Source: Symploca sp. SIO3C6 (lineage in GTDB: Bacteria; Cyanobacteriota; Cyanobacteriia; Cyanobacteriales; Coleofasciculaceae). From it: a stretch of 64,000 bases of DNA. The DNA lies in NCBI GenBank assembly GCA_010692425.1, contig JAAHHJ010000017.1, forward strand, positions 62,001 through 126,000. The letters run 5' to 3'. Below, in pieces: positions 21,802-55,750 of this stretch. The notes beneath the pieces are model-generated. The model searched no databases. It was not told where the DNA came from and was given only the letters and a program-made list of their open reading frames with translations. The position numbers and the translations under genes were made by a program. Each line of letters starts with the position of its first letter. Position 1 is the stretch's first letter.

Positions 21802-22401
21802 TTAGCCATTGTTGTTAGAGAGCCATTTAACCAGCAAAAACCCAGAGCCAAATGCTGTCAGTAAAATTGTGATAATAACCACAACCAACAGCCAACCATT
21901 TACATCTGAACTTCCCTCTGAGGAATTAGGACGACGGTAACGCTCTTCTTCCTGTTCAAATACTAATGTTTCTCCATATGGGGAAGTATTTGTTTCCGAT
22001 TGATGGGACTCTCTGGGAAACTCAACCTCTGGAGTTGCTGTTGTATTTCGAGGCAAAGGTGCGGTTGTAGCTGGCGGTGATGGCGACGGTATAGCTGAAC
22101 CATCACTAGACTTTCCGTGCTGGCTAACTGGTTTTAGGGAAGCTACAACCTGCTGTAAATGCTGGGCTGACTTAACGACTTTTTCAACTTCCTGGTGCAG
22201 TAGTTGGTTTTGTTTGACTAATTGCTGATTTTGATTGTTCAGGGATTCAAGCCTTGCCCGTGCCGTCTGCAACTCAGCTGCCAATTCTCGATAGACGGAA
22301 ATTGGTACTGAAGGGCGATAGGAACTAGCTACTGTTGATGGCTTCATGCTTTCAGCCACAGGTTTTGCCATAGAAGTATTGATCTGAGAATGGGAGGTCA
22401 T
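21802..22401 (-). CDS. hypothetical coiled-coil protein with C-terminal TM
   Basis: 199 aa; coiled coil ELAAELQTARARLESLNNQNQQLVKQNQLLHQEVEKV and TM WLLVVVIITILLTAFGSGFLLVKW. Confidence 0.75.
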   Translation of the reverse strand: MTSHSQINTSMAKPVAESMKPSTVASSYRPSVPISVYRELAAELQTARARLESLNNQNQQLVKQNQLLHQEVEKVVKSAQHLQQVVASLKPVSQHGKSSDGSAIPSPSPPATTAPLPRNTTATPEVEFPRESHQSETNTSPYGETLVFEQEEERYRRPNSSEGSSDVNGWLLVVVIITILLTAFGSGFLLVKWLSNNNG

Positions 22402-22410
22402 AGGAAATTT

Positions 22411-22780
22411 GACATCTTCCCAGCGCTAAAAGCGCGGGATTCCTAAACCTCGCGATTTAGGTTTCTGCTTCTTCCACATCTGCGTACACTACCAACTCGC
22501 GTTAGTTATGTCCCCGTCTTACATCATGTCCACAGACTTTCGACCCATTGCAGAGTCCCGATTCCGCAAGCCCTGCGGTACGGAGTCTTACAAGAGTGGT
22601 ACTTGTTGCTTAGGCTTTTTACCAAGCTTTGCATTCCTAGCCGGAACGCCCTAAACCTAGTTTTTCAAGGTGCTAATACCTACTGCTTGGTTTTCGCGCT
22701 TCGGTATCTCTCGATTGTACAACGGCGGTGGAGGCGCGGCTTTCCTCCCATCAGTAAAACCGAGGGTTGACCGCCGCGAA
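22411..22780 (-). mobile_element. ORF-less IS605-superfamily-like element with candidate omegaRNA/reRNA
   Basis: Minus strand ends with GGAATCCCGCGCTTTTAGCGCTGGGAAGATGTC (TnpB-type right end); other end 22730..22780 matches 37741..37791 (reverse complement) at 45/51 by eye; no ORF; interior hairpins CCGCA-AGCCC-TGCGG, CCTAAA..TTTAGG, ACCAAGC..GCTTGGT. Confidence 0.65.
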
Positions 22781-22889
22781 ATTAGATGAAAACGCATGTA
22801 AGGCAAGAATAGTTTAACTACCCGGATCTAGCAAAGCTTAATCACGAAAATGATCTCCTAACTCGGATGAATCAGAGACTCCTTCTTCT

Positions 22890-35635: not shown

Positions 35636-37735
35636 TTATTTTCTGGGTTTACCATTGCCATTACCATTGCCGTTACCGTTACCGTTGCTGCGACCAGTAG
35701 TTTTCAGGACTCCTGTAGCTAGCTTACCGGGGACTTCCTGAAGATGATTATACTCCCATTTGAAGAAACCAGTACCGAGAGTAAGCGATCGCAACTCCAC
35801 AATGAAGTCATGCATCTCGGCTTGAGGGAGATAGCCACAGACACAATCCCAGCCTTTCCAATCGGAAATCGCTTCATAGCCGAGAATTTGCCCGCGACGC
35901 CCAGTTATTAGTTGGAGGACTTTAGAGGTAAATTCTATCGGTGCCTTGACTTCAATCGCCATAATTGGCTCAAGAAGCATTGGTTGGCAATTAGGCATGC
36001 CTTGCGTCATTGCTAAGCGTGCTGCTTGCTTAAAAGCCTGTTCGGAGCTATCAACGGAGTGGTAAGAGCCATTAGTCAGTGTTACTGCTACATCCACCAC
36101 TGGAAAACCTAGAGGTCCTTGTGATAAATACTCTCGAACACCAGTTTCTACACCAGGAATATATTGCTTCGGTACTACACCACCGACAATAGTGTCCGAG
36201 AAATCGAAGCCTTCACCACGATGCTGGGGTTTAATCTCAAGGTAAACATCACCAAATTGACCATGACCACCACTTTGATGCTTGTAGCGCCCATGAGAAG
36301 AGGTGGTTTTACGGATAGTTTCCTTATAGGGAACTTGTGGCCAACCTGTAGTCATTGGTAGGTTATACTTACGCCGCAGTCGGTCTAGAGCCACCTTGAG
36401 GTGAATGTCTCCTTGCCCCCAGAGGATAATTTCATTTGTATCGCCATGTTGCTCCCAGGCTAGAGAAGGGTCTTCTTCCAGCATCTTAGTTAAAGCCCCA
36501 GAGAGCTTGACTTCGTCTTTGCGCTTCTCTGGGGCAATTGCTAGGGCATAAACTGGCTTAATTGGTTCAGCTTGCGATAATTTCACGCCTGAATTATCAC
36601 CGCTAGCAACTAAGGTAGCCCCAGTTTGGATACCTTCTAAGCGTCCTAGGGCAATAATTTCACCGGCTGATGCCTTTGATATTGACTGAGATTGTTGACC
36701 CTGTAAGCGATACAAGCCACTGGGACGAACCTGATTGAGAATTATACCCTCGGTAAGTTGACCTTGCCAAAGGCGCACTAGTGAGAGTCTTCCACCTTGG
36801 GGAGTGTAATAGGTTTTAAGTACCTGTGCCACTACTTTCTCAGAATTACCATCAATTCCCCGTCGCTTAGCAGTAGTTTCAGGTGCTGGTGCTTCCCGCA
36901 AGAGGGCATCAATTAGATGCCTGACGCCATAATCTCGCTCAGCTACGCCCATAAACACTGGCACAATTAGGTCACAGCCCAATTCCATTTTCAGGTCTTG
37001 AAGAATTTCTTCCTGAGGCGGTTCAATTTCTTCTAATAGTTCTTCTAGGAGATGGTCATCAAAATCTGCTAAGGTTTCGAGTAATTGCGCCCTTGCTTCC
37101 TGCTCCTGCTCCTTCAAAGACTCAGGCAATGGTACCAGATCAGCTGGGGCATCAGGGTGGTACTGATAGGCTTGTTCACTAACTAAATCAATAAATCCTG
37201 TGACTTTGTCCCCTGTGCCAATGGGGTACTGGTGCAGCACTAAAGGACGGGCTGAGACTGATTTAATCGCTGCTAATAATTCTCGATAAGAGCTGCCCCA
37301 AGCACCACCATTACAGCTAAATCGGTCTACTTTGTTAATAAATAATAGGTGCGGAATTTCCCAATCATCGAGAAACTTAAATAGGGGAGACAGCGTTAGG
37401 ACGCGCTCAATTACTGGTTCACAAACAACGATCGCGGCATCGACGCCAATTAAAGCATTGTAGGTTTCTTGGGCAAACTCAATTGAGCCTGGGCAATCTA
37501 GAAAGGTGAAGTCAATACCCCGATATTGGGTAGTAGCGACAGTTACCTCCACGCTCATGTGGCGCTCGCGTGCTTCGGCTGCACTATCACCTACTGTATT
37601 GCCGTCTTTAATATTGCCTTTGCGAGAAATCGCACCAGTCACAGACAATAAGCTCTCCAACAAAGTGGTTTTGCCACTTAAATAGGGACCGACAATTGCC
37701 ACATTACGGGTAGCAGAAACGACTTTTTCGTTCAT
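35636..37735 (-). CDS. elongation factor G-like GTPase (divergent paralog)
   Basis: P-loop GPYLSGKTTLLESLL, LDCPGSIEF, INKVDRF, EF-G domains IV/V (GQFGDVYLEIKP...); C-terminal NGNGNGNGNGNGK repeat. Confidence 0.9.
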   Translation of the reverse strand: MNEKVVSATRNVAIVGPYLSGKTTLLESLLSVTGAISRKGNIKDGNTVGDSAAEARERHMSVEVTVATTQYRGIDFTFLDCPGSIEFAQETYNALIGVDAAIVVCEPVIERVLTLSPLFKFLDDWEIPHLLFINKVDRFSCNGGAWGSSYRELLAAIKSVSARPLVLHQYPIGTGDKVTGFIDLVSEQAYQYHPDAPADLVPLPESLKEQEQEARAQLLETLADFDDHLLEELLEEIEPPQEEILQDLKMELGCDLIVPVFMGVAERDYGVRHLIDALLREAPAPETTAKRRGIDGNSEKVVAQVLKTYYTPQGGRLSLVRLWQGQLTEGIILNQVRPSGLYRLQGQQSQSISKASAGEIIALGRLEGIQTGATLVASGDNSGVKLSQAEPIKPVYALAIAPEKRKDEVKLSGALTKMLEEDPSLAWEQHGDTNEIILWGQGDIHLKVALDRLRRKYNLPMTTGWPQVPYKETIRKTTSSHGRYKHQSGGHGQFGDVYLEIKPQHRGEGFDFSDTIVGGVVPKQYIPGVETGVREYLSQGPLGFPVVDVAVTLTNGSYHSVDSSEQAFKQAARLAMTQGMPNCQPMLLEPIMAIEVKAPIEFTSKVLQLITGRRGQILGYEAISDWKGWDCVCGYLPQAEMHDFIVELRSLTLGTGFFKWEYNHLQEVPGKLATGVLKTTGRSNGNGNGNGNGNGKPRK

Positions 37736-38865
37736 CTTTCTTCGCGGCGGTCGCCCCTCGCTTTTAGCGACGGGAGGAAAGCCGCGCCTCCGACTAATGG
37801 TTTACAAATTAATCCTGTGCTACGTCTTAGTAGCTTGGTTTTCTTGACAGAAAACTGCCCTAATCGCTTCGAGTTAAAATCTGATACCGAAACTTGTGTT
37901 TTGGTGTCTCCCGATACCCAGCCCCGATATTTAACCCCTTTGCGCTCTGTCTCGACGAAGTCTCCCTTTCTAAGACCGTGGCAAGTTACTGTCGCGCCAT
38001 ATTTGCGACGCTTTCCACCCTTGGCGAACACCATTAGATGTAGCTGTCTACGGCTAACGGGAGGTCGCTTAACGACTAAAAACGGAGCTGGGGTAACTTG
38101 ACAAATACCTTGCCAGTAACCGTATTTACCTCTCAACTCTTTCCATCTCAAAAAGTAATGAGCGGCTAGAGCGATACCATCAACAGCATGAGTGGCAGGT
38201 GTTTGATTAGCCTTGTTGGATTTGTCTTTAGTCAAACCCAAGTATTGCCTGAGGTTTGAAGTTTCCCAGCCATACCTGGTAGTAACTGGCGCTAGTTGTG
38301 GCAACCACTCCTCAATCATGACTTTTTGACCTACCATTGCTGGACTAAAGCCTTTGTTCCCCTTAGCCTTAATGTATTCGTACACAATACCGCTAACTGG
38401 AAACAGCTCGGTTAATTCTTTAACGACACGGTACTCAAGTTGTCTATTGGAACGAATACTAGGAGGGAGCTTTCTAGCCTTGCGATTGTTAAAGCGTACT
38501 TGTCTATGTGAACGTTGGTTGTAGGGTAACTTGCGATTAATTCGTCTGCCTCTACGCCCACGCCGCATCATTCTACGGTCTGACATTCGCTTTGTAACAC
38601 TCTTAAAAGGTAACTCAAGATGGGCAGTAAAAAGGGTTGCTTTGACAGATTGAACACCTATCCCAGTAAATAGTTTTCCAGGGTCAATACCAACAGCTAT
38701 AGGTTGGGTTTTAGTATCAGCATCTATTGTTAATTGGATAGCAAACTGTTGCAGGTCATTCCGGTAGATTCGTGCCTTACCTTCCTTTAGCCATCGCCTT
38801 GCACGACTAGGCTTGGTCGGCATTAAAGGCTTGCCGAATTTACTGATAACGGGTACACGATACAT
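37732..38865 (-). CDS. isrB: IsrB-type RNA-guided RuvC nuclease (IscB family lacking HNH)
   Basis: PLMP domain (VPVISKFGKPLMPTKPSRARRWLKEGKARIY), RuvC-I VGIDPGKLFTGIGV, Arg-rich bridge RMSDRRMMRRGRRGRRINRKLPYNQRSHRQVRFNNR, RuvC-II-like IVYEYIKA, RuvC-III THAVDGIALA; no HNH/CxxC insert. Confidence 0.85.
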   Translation of the reverse strand: MYRVPVISKFGKPLMPTKPSRARRWLKEGKARIYRNDLQQFAIQLTIDADTKTQPIAVGIDPGKLFTGIGVQSVKATLFTAHLELPFKSVTKRMSDRRMMRRGRRGRRINRKLPYNQRSHRQVRFNNRKARKLPPSIRSNRQLEYRVVKELTELFPVSGIVYEYIKAKGNKGFSPAMVGQKVMIEEWLPQLAPVTTRYGWETSNLRQYLGLTKDKSNKANQTPATHAVDGIALAAHYFLRWKELRGKYGYWQGICQVTPAPFLVVKRPPVSRRQLHLMVFAKGGKRRKYGATVTCHGLRKGDFVETERKGVKYRGWVSGDTKTQVSVSDFNSKRLGQFSVKKTKLLRRSTGLICKPLVGGAAFLPSLKARGDRREER

Positions 38866-39085
38866 GGTGATAAACCTTTCGTGAAAAAGTTAAAAGTCCC
38901 CTCGACCACGCTTAACAAGATGTCCCTTCTACAGGCGCAACTAGTAAGGTTGCTTGTAAATAATCTGAGCTGGGGAAGCACTCAGAAGTACGTGCCAGTT
39001 AAGCGCTCAATGGTAAGCGTCAAATCTCTGTAAGGCTTACCTCTTACAAGCCCTCGCTAGAAGCGAGGGTTATTGACTACTTTCC
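38866..39085 (-). ncRNA. candidate IsrB omegaRNA region / left end of isrB element
   Basis: Non-coding stretch directly upstream of isrB; contains strong hairpin CCCTCGCTTCTAGCGAGGG near its distal end; IscB/IsrB omegaRNAs lie upstream of the ORF. Confidence 0.5.
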
Positions 39086-44699: not shown

Positions 44700-44860
44700 T
44701 AAATATGGATAAACTTCATCGGCGGGCATTCTGACTCAGAGACATTAAGCTCATCACAGCTGCGGGACAGCGCCGGATTTACACCGAACTTTCCCCCTTT
44801 CCTCCAACGGCTGCTCCTCGTTGGAACCGATAATCTTGCTTATGCCAGGATATCATACCA
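44700..44860 (-). promoter_or_regulatory. cobalamin (B12) riboswitch
   Basis: Minus strand reads AAAGGGGGAAAGTTCGGTGTAAATCCGGCGCTGTCCCGCAGCTGTGATGAGC...GAGTCAGAATGCCCGCC, matching the cobalamin riboswitch core including the B12 box. Confidence 0.95.
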
Positions 44861-55106: not shown

Positions 55107-55363
55107 CTGTCTTTTTCTTCTTAGTTTAATTTAGTGTTTAATTGAGTTGATATGCTCCCCTGTCTATGTGCTTCAAGCAAGTTACTGCAATACAGTATAC
55201 CTCTTGCACAAAACATTGTTGCAAGAAGTTTATTCAATATCTAGATAATCTTTTCGGTTCAATTAGGCAAAAATCAGGATATTGATGTGACTAAAATAAC
55301 TAAAAACCACCTCTTATTTCACGCAAGAGATGGCTTTGTTGGCACGCGATTTAGATAATTTTA

Positions 55364-55750
55364 TGGAGCCTACGGGAATCGAACCCGTGTCCGCCTTGGG
55401 TATTAACTTATCGCTCATTCACAGGCTTAGCCCCTCTAACCCTCAGGGCGGGAACCATCCATTATCCCGGATGACAGGATGCTTTGGTGGTTTTCTTAGC
55501 TAATAAGCTTACCAAAGACAGCTTACTAGAGCATCCGTTGGGGTTTGGTCTATAGTCCTTAACGGAGTCAAACTATAGACGCTCGAACCTGTAAGAGGTG
55601 TTTAGGCAACAGCAGCTGCCTTACGAGCAAAAGGAACGATGTTGTTCGCAGTTACGTTTTTTTGAGTCCGGTATTTACGAGAGAAGACTCACTCTCGACC
55701 TGAATCACGGGTTAGCTTTCGCCAACACGTCGAAACCATTAAGGCCCCCC
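55364..55750 (-). ncRNA. ssrA: transfer-messenger RNA (tmRNA)
   Basis: 3' end TGGAGCCTACGGGAATCGAACCCGTGTCCG (complement), tag ORF GCGAACAACATCGTTCCTTTTGCTCGTAAGGCAGCTGCTGTTGCCTAA = ANNIVPFARKAAAVA*, 5' GGGGGCCTTAATGGTTTCGAC. Confidence 0.96.

Follow-up and report, generated by a model that had tools for sequence, protein, structure and literature searches.

An ORF-less IS200/IS605-type element in a cyanobacterial genome that probably makes a TnpB-type guide RNA used in trans

Results

Locus and extent of the element

The window analyzed here is the whole 64,000-nucleotide stretch (G000:C79:62001-126000) and belongs to a cyanobacterial draft genome of 7.5 Mb. A gene for a 199-aa coiled-coil/TM protein lies on its minus strand (21802..22401); it matches no Pfam family, and its ortholog in the congener G001 has no insertion. 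Upstream of its start codon, on the same strand, is a segment that the first-pass annotation had placed at 22391-22790. The minus-strand sequence quoted there is present as given, and the segment is a real unit, but genomic copies and an empty site set slightly tighter limits. We therefore define the element body as 377 bases at 22409..22785 (minus strand). No open reading frame of at least 60 aa lies inside it, in agreement with the reported absence of a transposase or nuclease gene.

Identity among aligned copies runs from TCATC (22789) to GTCAA (22409), and outside these points they have nothing in common. The left limit of identity is marked by TTCAT in the host flank (22786..22790, minus), and the right limit in all copies by the terminal GATGTCAA with its cleavage tetranucleotide TCAA (22409..22416, minus). 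The orthologous locus of the congener is empty, reading GACGTTTTAAT|ATGCATATGACC (L045) where the window has GCGTTTTCAT-element-ATTTCCTATGACC. From the alignment limits and the empty site together, we take TTCAT to be the target motif (TAM) and the element to span 22409-22785. With TTCAT assigned to the flank, the element still adjoins the ATG at 22401, at a distance of 7 nt rather than the 9 nt first given. The empty-site comparison and the end alignment also show insertion 3' of a short motif without target duplication and with subterminal hairpins. Inspected relatives include class A, with a TTCAT target and a GAGGATGTCAA end, and class B, with a TTAC target and GAGTGTCAA or a similar end; most class A copies are preceded by TTCAT or TCAT.

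Comparison with the rest of the genome and with a relative, which had been suggested along with the initial description, was productive. Searching the genome with the element returned 19 matches, six of them full-length copies and the remainder ends or partial matches. Besides the window copy, the full-length copies are 98, 95, 92, 90, and 86% identical to it, and their flanks differ. The congener G001, of the same genus, holds about 20 full or near-full copies as well as fragments, and none of the sampled copies occupies an insertion site common to both congeners. The element moves as a unit and is mobile. Two minimal PATE-like elements were also seen in the same genome, L014 (~53 bp) and L017 (~80 bp), in which the left end runs straight into the right end.

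Ends shared with tnpB elements

The first ~60 bp of the element form a left end (LE), an imperfect palindrome at 22730..22785 (minus), that is also found in the tnpB elements L019 and L050 and in an IsrB-like element of the window. Over its last ~65 bp, the element is 86-92% identical to right ends of same-genome tnpB elements (L007, L008, L009/L050). Within this right end (RE), the hairpin TCCCGCGC-TTTTA-GCGCTGGGA (22418..22439, minus), an equivalent of stem 4, is identical or near-identical in the tnpB elements L007, L008, and L097, and the hairpin CCTAAA...TTTAGG (22442..22461, minus) recurs in tnpB right ends as CCTAAG/CTTAGG. The earlier reading of a tnpB-type right end on the minus strand thus agrees with the ends common to co-resident tnpB elements and with the guide-RNA core described below, and those ends likewise bear out its suggestion of a non-autonomous element. 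Against the guide-RNA reading, TnpA needs the right end anyway. Similar pairings occur in other genera, where the LE and RE of ORF-less elements resemble those of tnpB elements of the same genus, including a common TTAGCGCAGCGGTGCGTAGCAC insert in the same hairpin. None of the TnpA loci retrieved had matching ends.

The IsrB-like element (window 37731-39077) carries a 377-aa RRXRR ORF at 37732-38865 (minus) and, just upstream of it, a weak HEARO match (38890-39077, minus, 31.3 bits, below gathering). Its insertion site is the start codon of an EF-G-like gene. One of its ends is 85% identical to the left end of the 377-base element, so TnpB-type and IsrB-type elements appear to share end sequence. 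Plasmid and phage collections gave matches to the right end only, found in records of one plasmid and three phages, all from Microcystis. In the Microcystis phages PP681323, PP681324, and OP394178, a right-end-like sequence (~82% over 65 bp) lies under hypothetical protein or transposase features.

A TnpB guide-RNA core in the 3' part

The last ~130 nt of the element contain a guide-RNA core in common with co-resident tnpB genes. This core, GTCTGTGGA-N7-TAAGAC (22516..22537, minus; positions -129..-108), is a fixed 22-nt motif with a GTCT/AGAC stem and a GGAC loop, a candidate equivalent of stem 1 and its pseudoknot. A pattern search found 85 sites in 15 of 22 family genomes (0 for the reversed-pattern control), and every listed site had a spacing of exactly N7, though N7-N10 was allowed. 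Because MAFFT misplaced the core when tnpB 3' ends were aligned to the element, we took it from this anchored, fixed-spacing search. Of the 30 core loci examined, some lay within a TnpB reading frame or at its end and the others in stretches that lack an ORF and close with the same type of right end; in a few, the motif is crossed by nothing longer than a short open frame, and these are possibly decayed tnpB. The motif is coding in tnpB 3' ends (..AVSVCG..) and non-coding in ORF-less elements, and both motif and spacing are kept in both.

The GGAC loop is complementary to the terminal GTC at the expected pseudoknot positions, and both are near-invariant. Cis copies in tnpB elements have GGAG instead of GGAC, which would make their pseudoknot shorter. 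The right-end loop UUUUA falls at -23..-19. Between core and right end, the hairpin ACTAAC-GCGA-GTTGGT (22491..22506, minus) has arms that differ between classes yet stay complementary, as judged by inspection of alignments. On the other side of the core are an extra hairpin, GACTCTGCAATGGGTC (22542..22557, minus), absent from tnpB cis RNAs, and the hairpin CCGCA-GGGCT-TGCGG (22564..22578, minus; helix 4), which shows double changes in all five pairs and is also present in tnpB 3' coding ends and cis RNAs. Four tnpB 3' ends (L076, L125, L126, L127) have a GC-rich palindromic insert, ACCCC/GGGGT, in place of the CCGCA/TGCGG hairpin, with the frame kept. An equivalent of ISDra2 stem 2 was not identified in the element, and its homology to tnpB cis RNA is limited to the core, the hairpins, and the right end. 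To judge from these sequence features, the 3' part is homologous to the reRNA/omegaRNA core of ISDra2-like TnpB.

A conserved structured 5' domain

Upstream of the core is a structured RNA domain, GCACCTTGAAAA...CGGAATCG (22559..22673, minus). RNAalifold on relatives gave compensatory changes in 17 of 55 pairs. We built a covariance model of this domain (R1), with which we aligned 86 matches that comprise 73 distinct sequences; the window sequence, itself included in the model, scores 120.9 bits (E 1.6e-31). Paired cells in the R1 alignment amount to 96.7%, doubly changed cells number 352 against 99.6 when shuffled, and the covariation score is 0.686 against 0.214 shuffled and at most 0.084 for slid versions. 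The several strong hairpins noted originally are present: single-sequence folding, a weak test, is only mildly unusual (z -1.9), but covariation among relatives is strong. A covariance-model check had also been proposed; HEARO and Rfam searches gave no match to the element, while our own R1 model shows a conserved fold.

The G-U pairs of the covarying helices place the RNA on the strand running from TAM to right end. IS200/IS605 transposition uses single-stranded DNA, so selection on ssDNA hairpins could in principle account for part of the covariation. Relatives in other genera have the same interior and different ends, and such conserved interior folds between variable ends fit RNA better than ssDNA folding. 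RNAalifold also proposed a long-range pair of GCACCTT in the 5' domain with the terminal GAGGATGT beside the guide, which is unsupported because it shows no covariation within class A.

Distribution and related families

R1 matches occur in 115 of 293 genomes of the order, representing 61 of 122 genera. A phylum-wide draw found them in 38 of 294 genomes, all but one of the same order. A gapped DNA pattern run against 85,462 species genomes hit 84 stretches, of which 83 are cyanobacterial; the other, on a Rhizobium MAG contig, may be contamination. Nearly all inspected R1 matches, strong and weak, end in an IS200/IS605-type right end. No tnpB ORF with a zinc-ribbon signature was found within 2.5 kb of any of 148 R1-type motif sites, a count that includes duplicates and some flanks of only 1.5 kb, and a search of four genomes found no tnpB with a class B (TTAC-type) 3' end.

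Rfam 15 gave no family at the gathering threshold and no relevant match at relaxed thresholds. A group I or II intron, considered for the size of the element and the IStron precedent, was rejected for lack of an Rfam match. Elsewhere in the window, Rfam identified two ordinary RNAs, a cobalamin riboswitch and a tmRNA, at 44704-44846 and 55361-55748. Other ORF-less groups were also seen. A second RNA type (L010/L047 at G000:C46:264772-265201, L306, L307, L308) combines a different 5' domain, GACCCACCC...ACAGGGCAATGGA, with a 3' guide-RNA part and a right end that are both similar, and has no Rfam family; in a further group (L315-L318, G284), a 3' end of class B type follows yet another 5' sequence (GGAACTAGACAAAGC...).

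Putative guide, promoter, and partner protein

The sequence directly 3' of the right end differs at each copy, as expected of a TnpB guide. Taking a length of 16 nt from ISDra2 (PMC10097598), the predicted guide of the window copy is ATTTCCTATGACCTCC (22393..22408, minus), the first bases after TCAA and unique to this copy. It starts at 22408, with the element ending 7 nt before the ATG, and covers that start codon, as the first-pass annotation had seen. This overlap occurs at the window copy only, and we regard it as an accident of recent insertion, not domestication.

Just inside the left end and upstream of the RNA domain is a putative extended -10 box, TTGTACAAT (22714..22722, minus), which we take as a candidate promoter. 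Matches of at least 7/8 to TGnTATAAT occur in 26 of 80 distinct relatives against 8.6% in shuffles, a moderate enrichment, and cluster ~45-50 nt upstream. A possible partner is encoded in the same genome at C248 as an intact 401-aa TnpB with PF01385, PF07282, and PF12323 (OrfB_IS605/Cas12f1-like_TNB families). A designed nuclease aside, its closest PDB match is ISDra2 TnpB (8bf8, E=1.3e-73).

Discussion

The most probable reading is a non-autonomous element of the IS200/IS605 type that makes nothing but a TnpB-type guide RNA used in trans. Since it has no protein gene and its RNA would end in the manner of a TnpB guide RNA, the TnpB it uses is probably supplied from another locus in the cell. 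The initial description had offered a standalone trans guide RNA and a palindrome-associated non-autonomous element as separate options. The tnpB guide-RNA core in an ORF-less 3' part speaks for the former, and our data support the two being the same thing here. Its label "TnpB/IscB-type" can be narrowed: the guide would be 3' and the RNA would run from TAM to right end, as for TnpB, and the IscB/IsrB part falls away with no HEARO match on either strand.

We envisage that the element is transcribed from its own -10 box into an ~300-nt RNA reading into the flank, with the first ~16 flank nucleotides serving as the guide. The 5' domain would presumably stand in for the leader that tnpB mRNA gives a tnpB-linked guide RNA. 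TnpB of a related element elsewhere, such as the one at C248, would bind this RNA and cut sites with TTCAT and the guide sequence. Such targets would be the empty site after excision or the uninserted sister chromosome, and repair would copy the element back; excision and insertion would be carried out by TnpA acting in trans. The inserted copy would be spared, as its guide sequence follows TCAA in place of TTCAT, and the congener's orthologous site would escape because it has TTAAT and a different target. Selfish retention by cutting the empty site is a scheme known for tnpB elements.

A functional RNA that is not a TnpB guide, acting as a regulator of TnpA/TnpB expression, a TnpB decoy or antagonist, or the partner of another protein, seems unlikely to us. 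Its 5' domain does extend beyond the known TnpB scaffold, the ISDra2 RNA being disordered upstream of -116 (PMC10097598), and the GCACCTT/GAGGATGT pairing could mask the guide-proximal end. However, that pair does not covary in class A, the scaffold core is retained at the 3' end, and every copy has a unique flank in the guide position. It is also rather improbable that this is an ordinary IS605-derived MITE or PATE, with end hairpins serving TnpA in trans as its sole functional parts and an interior of decayed tnpB that has no role as RNA. Non-coding PATEs bounded by IS605-like ends are already known (PMC3119063), and the genome itself holds very short elements of LE and RE only (L014, L017). 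Random decay, in contrast, would not give an interior conserved over many families, nor does this reading sit well with strong interior covariation across elements with different ends and TAMs.

Two further readings appear far less plausible. That the downstream gene has domesticated the element as a 5' leader or regulatory RNA, a reading also raised in the first-pass annotation, could draw on the closeness of the ATG, since the transcript would enter the gene; we consider it highly improbable and no longer favor it, as the insertion is recent and missing from the congener's ortholog, other copies sit at unrelated sites, and no other copy overlaps an ATG in this way. We give next to no credence to an IscB/IsrB-type (HEARO-like) omegaRNA element on the opposite strand. 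The IsrB-like element at 37731-39077, with its similar end and weak HEARO match, speaks for it, but RF02033 has no match in the 377-base element even at E up to 10, the G-U pairs lie on the TAM-to-right-end strand, and the core and right end match tnpB.

Standalone IscB omegaRNAs act in trans from guide RNA loci that have no nuclease gene. Those are of IscB type with a 5' guide, whereas the RNA described here would be of TnpB type with a 3' guide. Work on Geobacillus may have mentioned gene-less IS605 elements that keep an omegaRNA.

The layout is close to that of ISDra2 TnpB reRNA/omegaRNA, with a 3' guide from the right flank and a TAM at the left flank (PMC8612924, PMC10097598). ISDra2 omegaRNA has stem 1 at -116..-86, the loop of which forms a pseudoknot with -5..-3, and a UUUA loop at -20..-17 (PMC10097598). 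The element is alike in stem 1, candidate GGAC/GTC pseudoknot, and UUUUA loop. Unlike ISDra2 reRNA, it overlaps no tnpB ORF, has its own putative promoter, and adds a conserved ~150-nt 5' domain that is undescribed there and was not detected beside tnpB genes here. The element RNA would work like a TnpB reRNA without being a cis member, as it has no ORF and no tnpB lies within 2.5 kb of the 148 motif sites. With PATEs and other IS200/IS605-derived non-autonomous elements it shares IS605-like ends, multiple copies, and the lack of both an ORF and a target duplication; PATEs, however, have been characterized as end hairpins around deleted cores (PMC3119063), and its core is a conserved structured RNA. 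RAGATH-18 is a structured RNA family shown to be the guide scaffold (reRNA) of IS607 TnpB, and only 64% of its members adjoin a TnpB, so some stand apart (PMC11061315). The element RNA differs from it, with no Rfam match and a different transposase type.

As a concept, an RNA-only element with a trans TnpB guide RNA is a variation on parts that are already known. What appears to be undescribed in the sources searched is this particular RNA family, which has a conserved 5' domain and is widespread in cyanobacteria. These sources, which mostly leave out subscription journals, gave no account of such RNA-only elements, and novelty is provisional. We lean, somewhat tentatively, toward a broader picture in which cyanobacteria harbor a large, old family of RNA-only IS200/IS605 elements, combining one 5' domain with several TnpB-type scaffolds and ends (TTCAT, TTAC) and supplying guides to the TnpB of other elements.

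Our findings suggest that transposons without genes, carrying a guide RNA alone, can share TnpB in trans in a manner reminiscent of a split CRISPR system, and that such sharing is common among cyanobacteria. They define an unlisted RNA family in which the role of the extra domain in TnpB binding, stability, or specificity is directly testable. They also provide a natural setting in which to ask whether guide supply alone can maintain a transposon, and these elements may be a source of natural trans guide scaffolds for TnpB tools.
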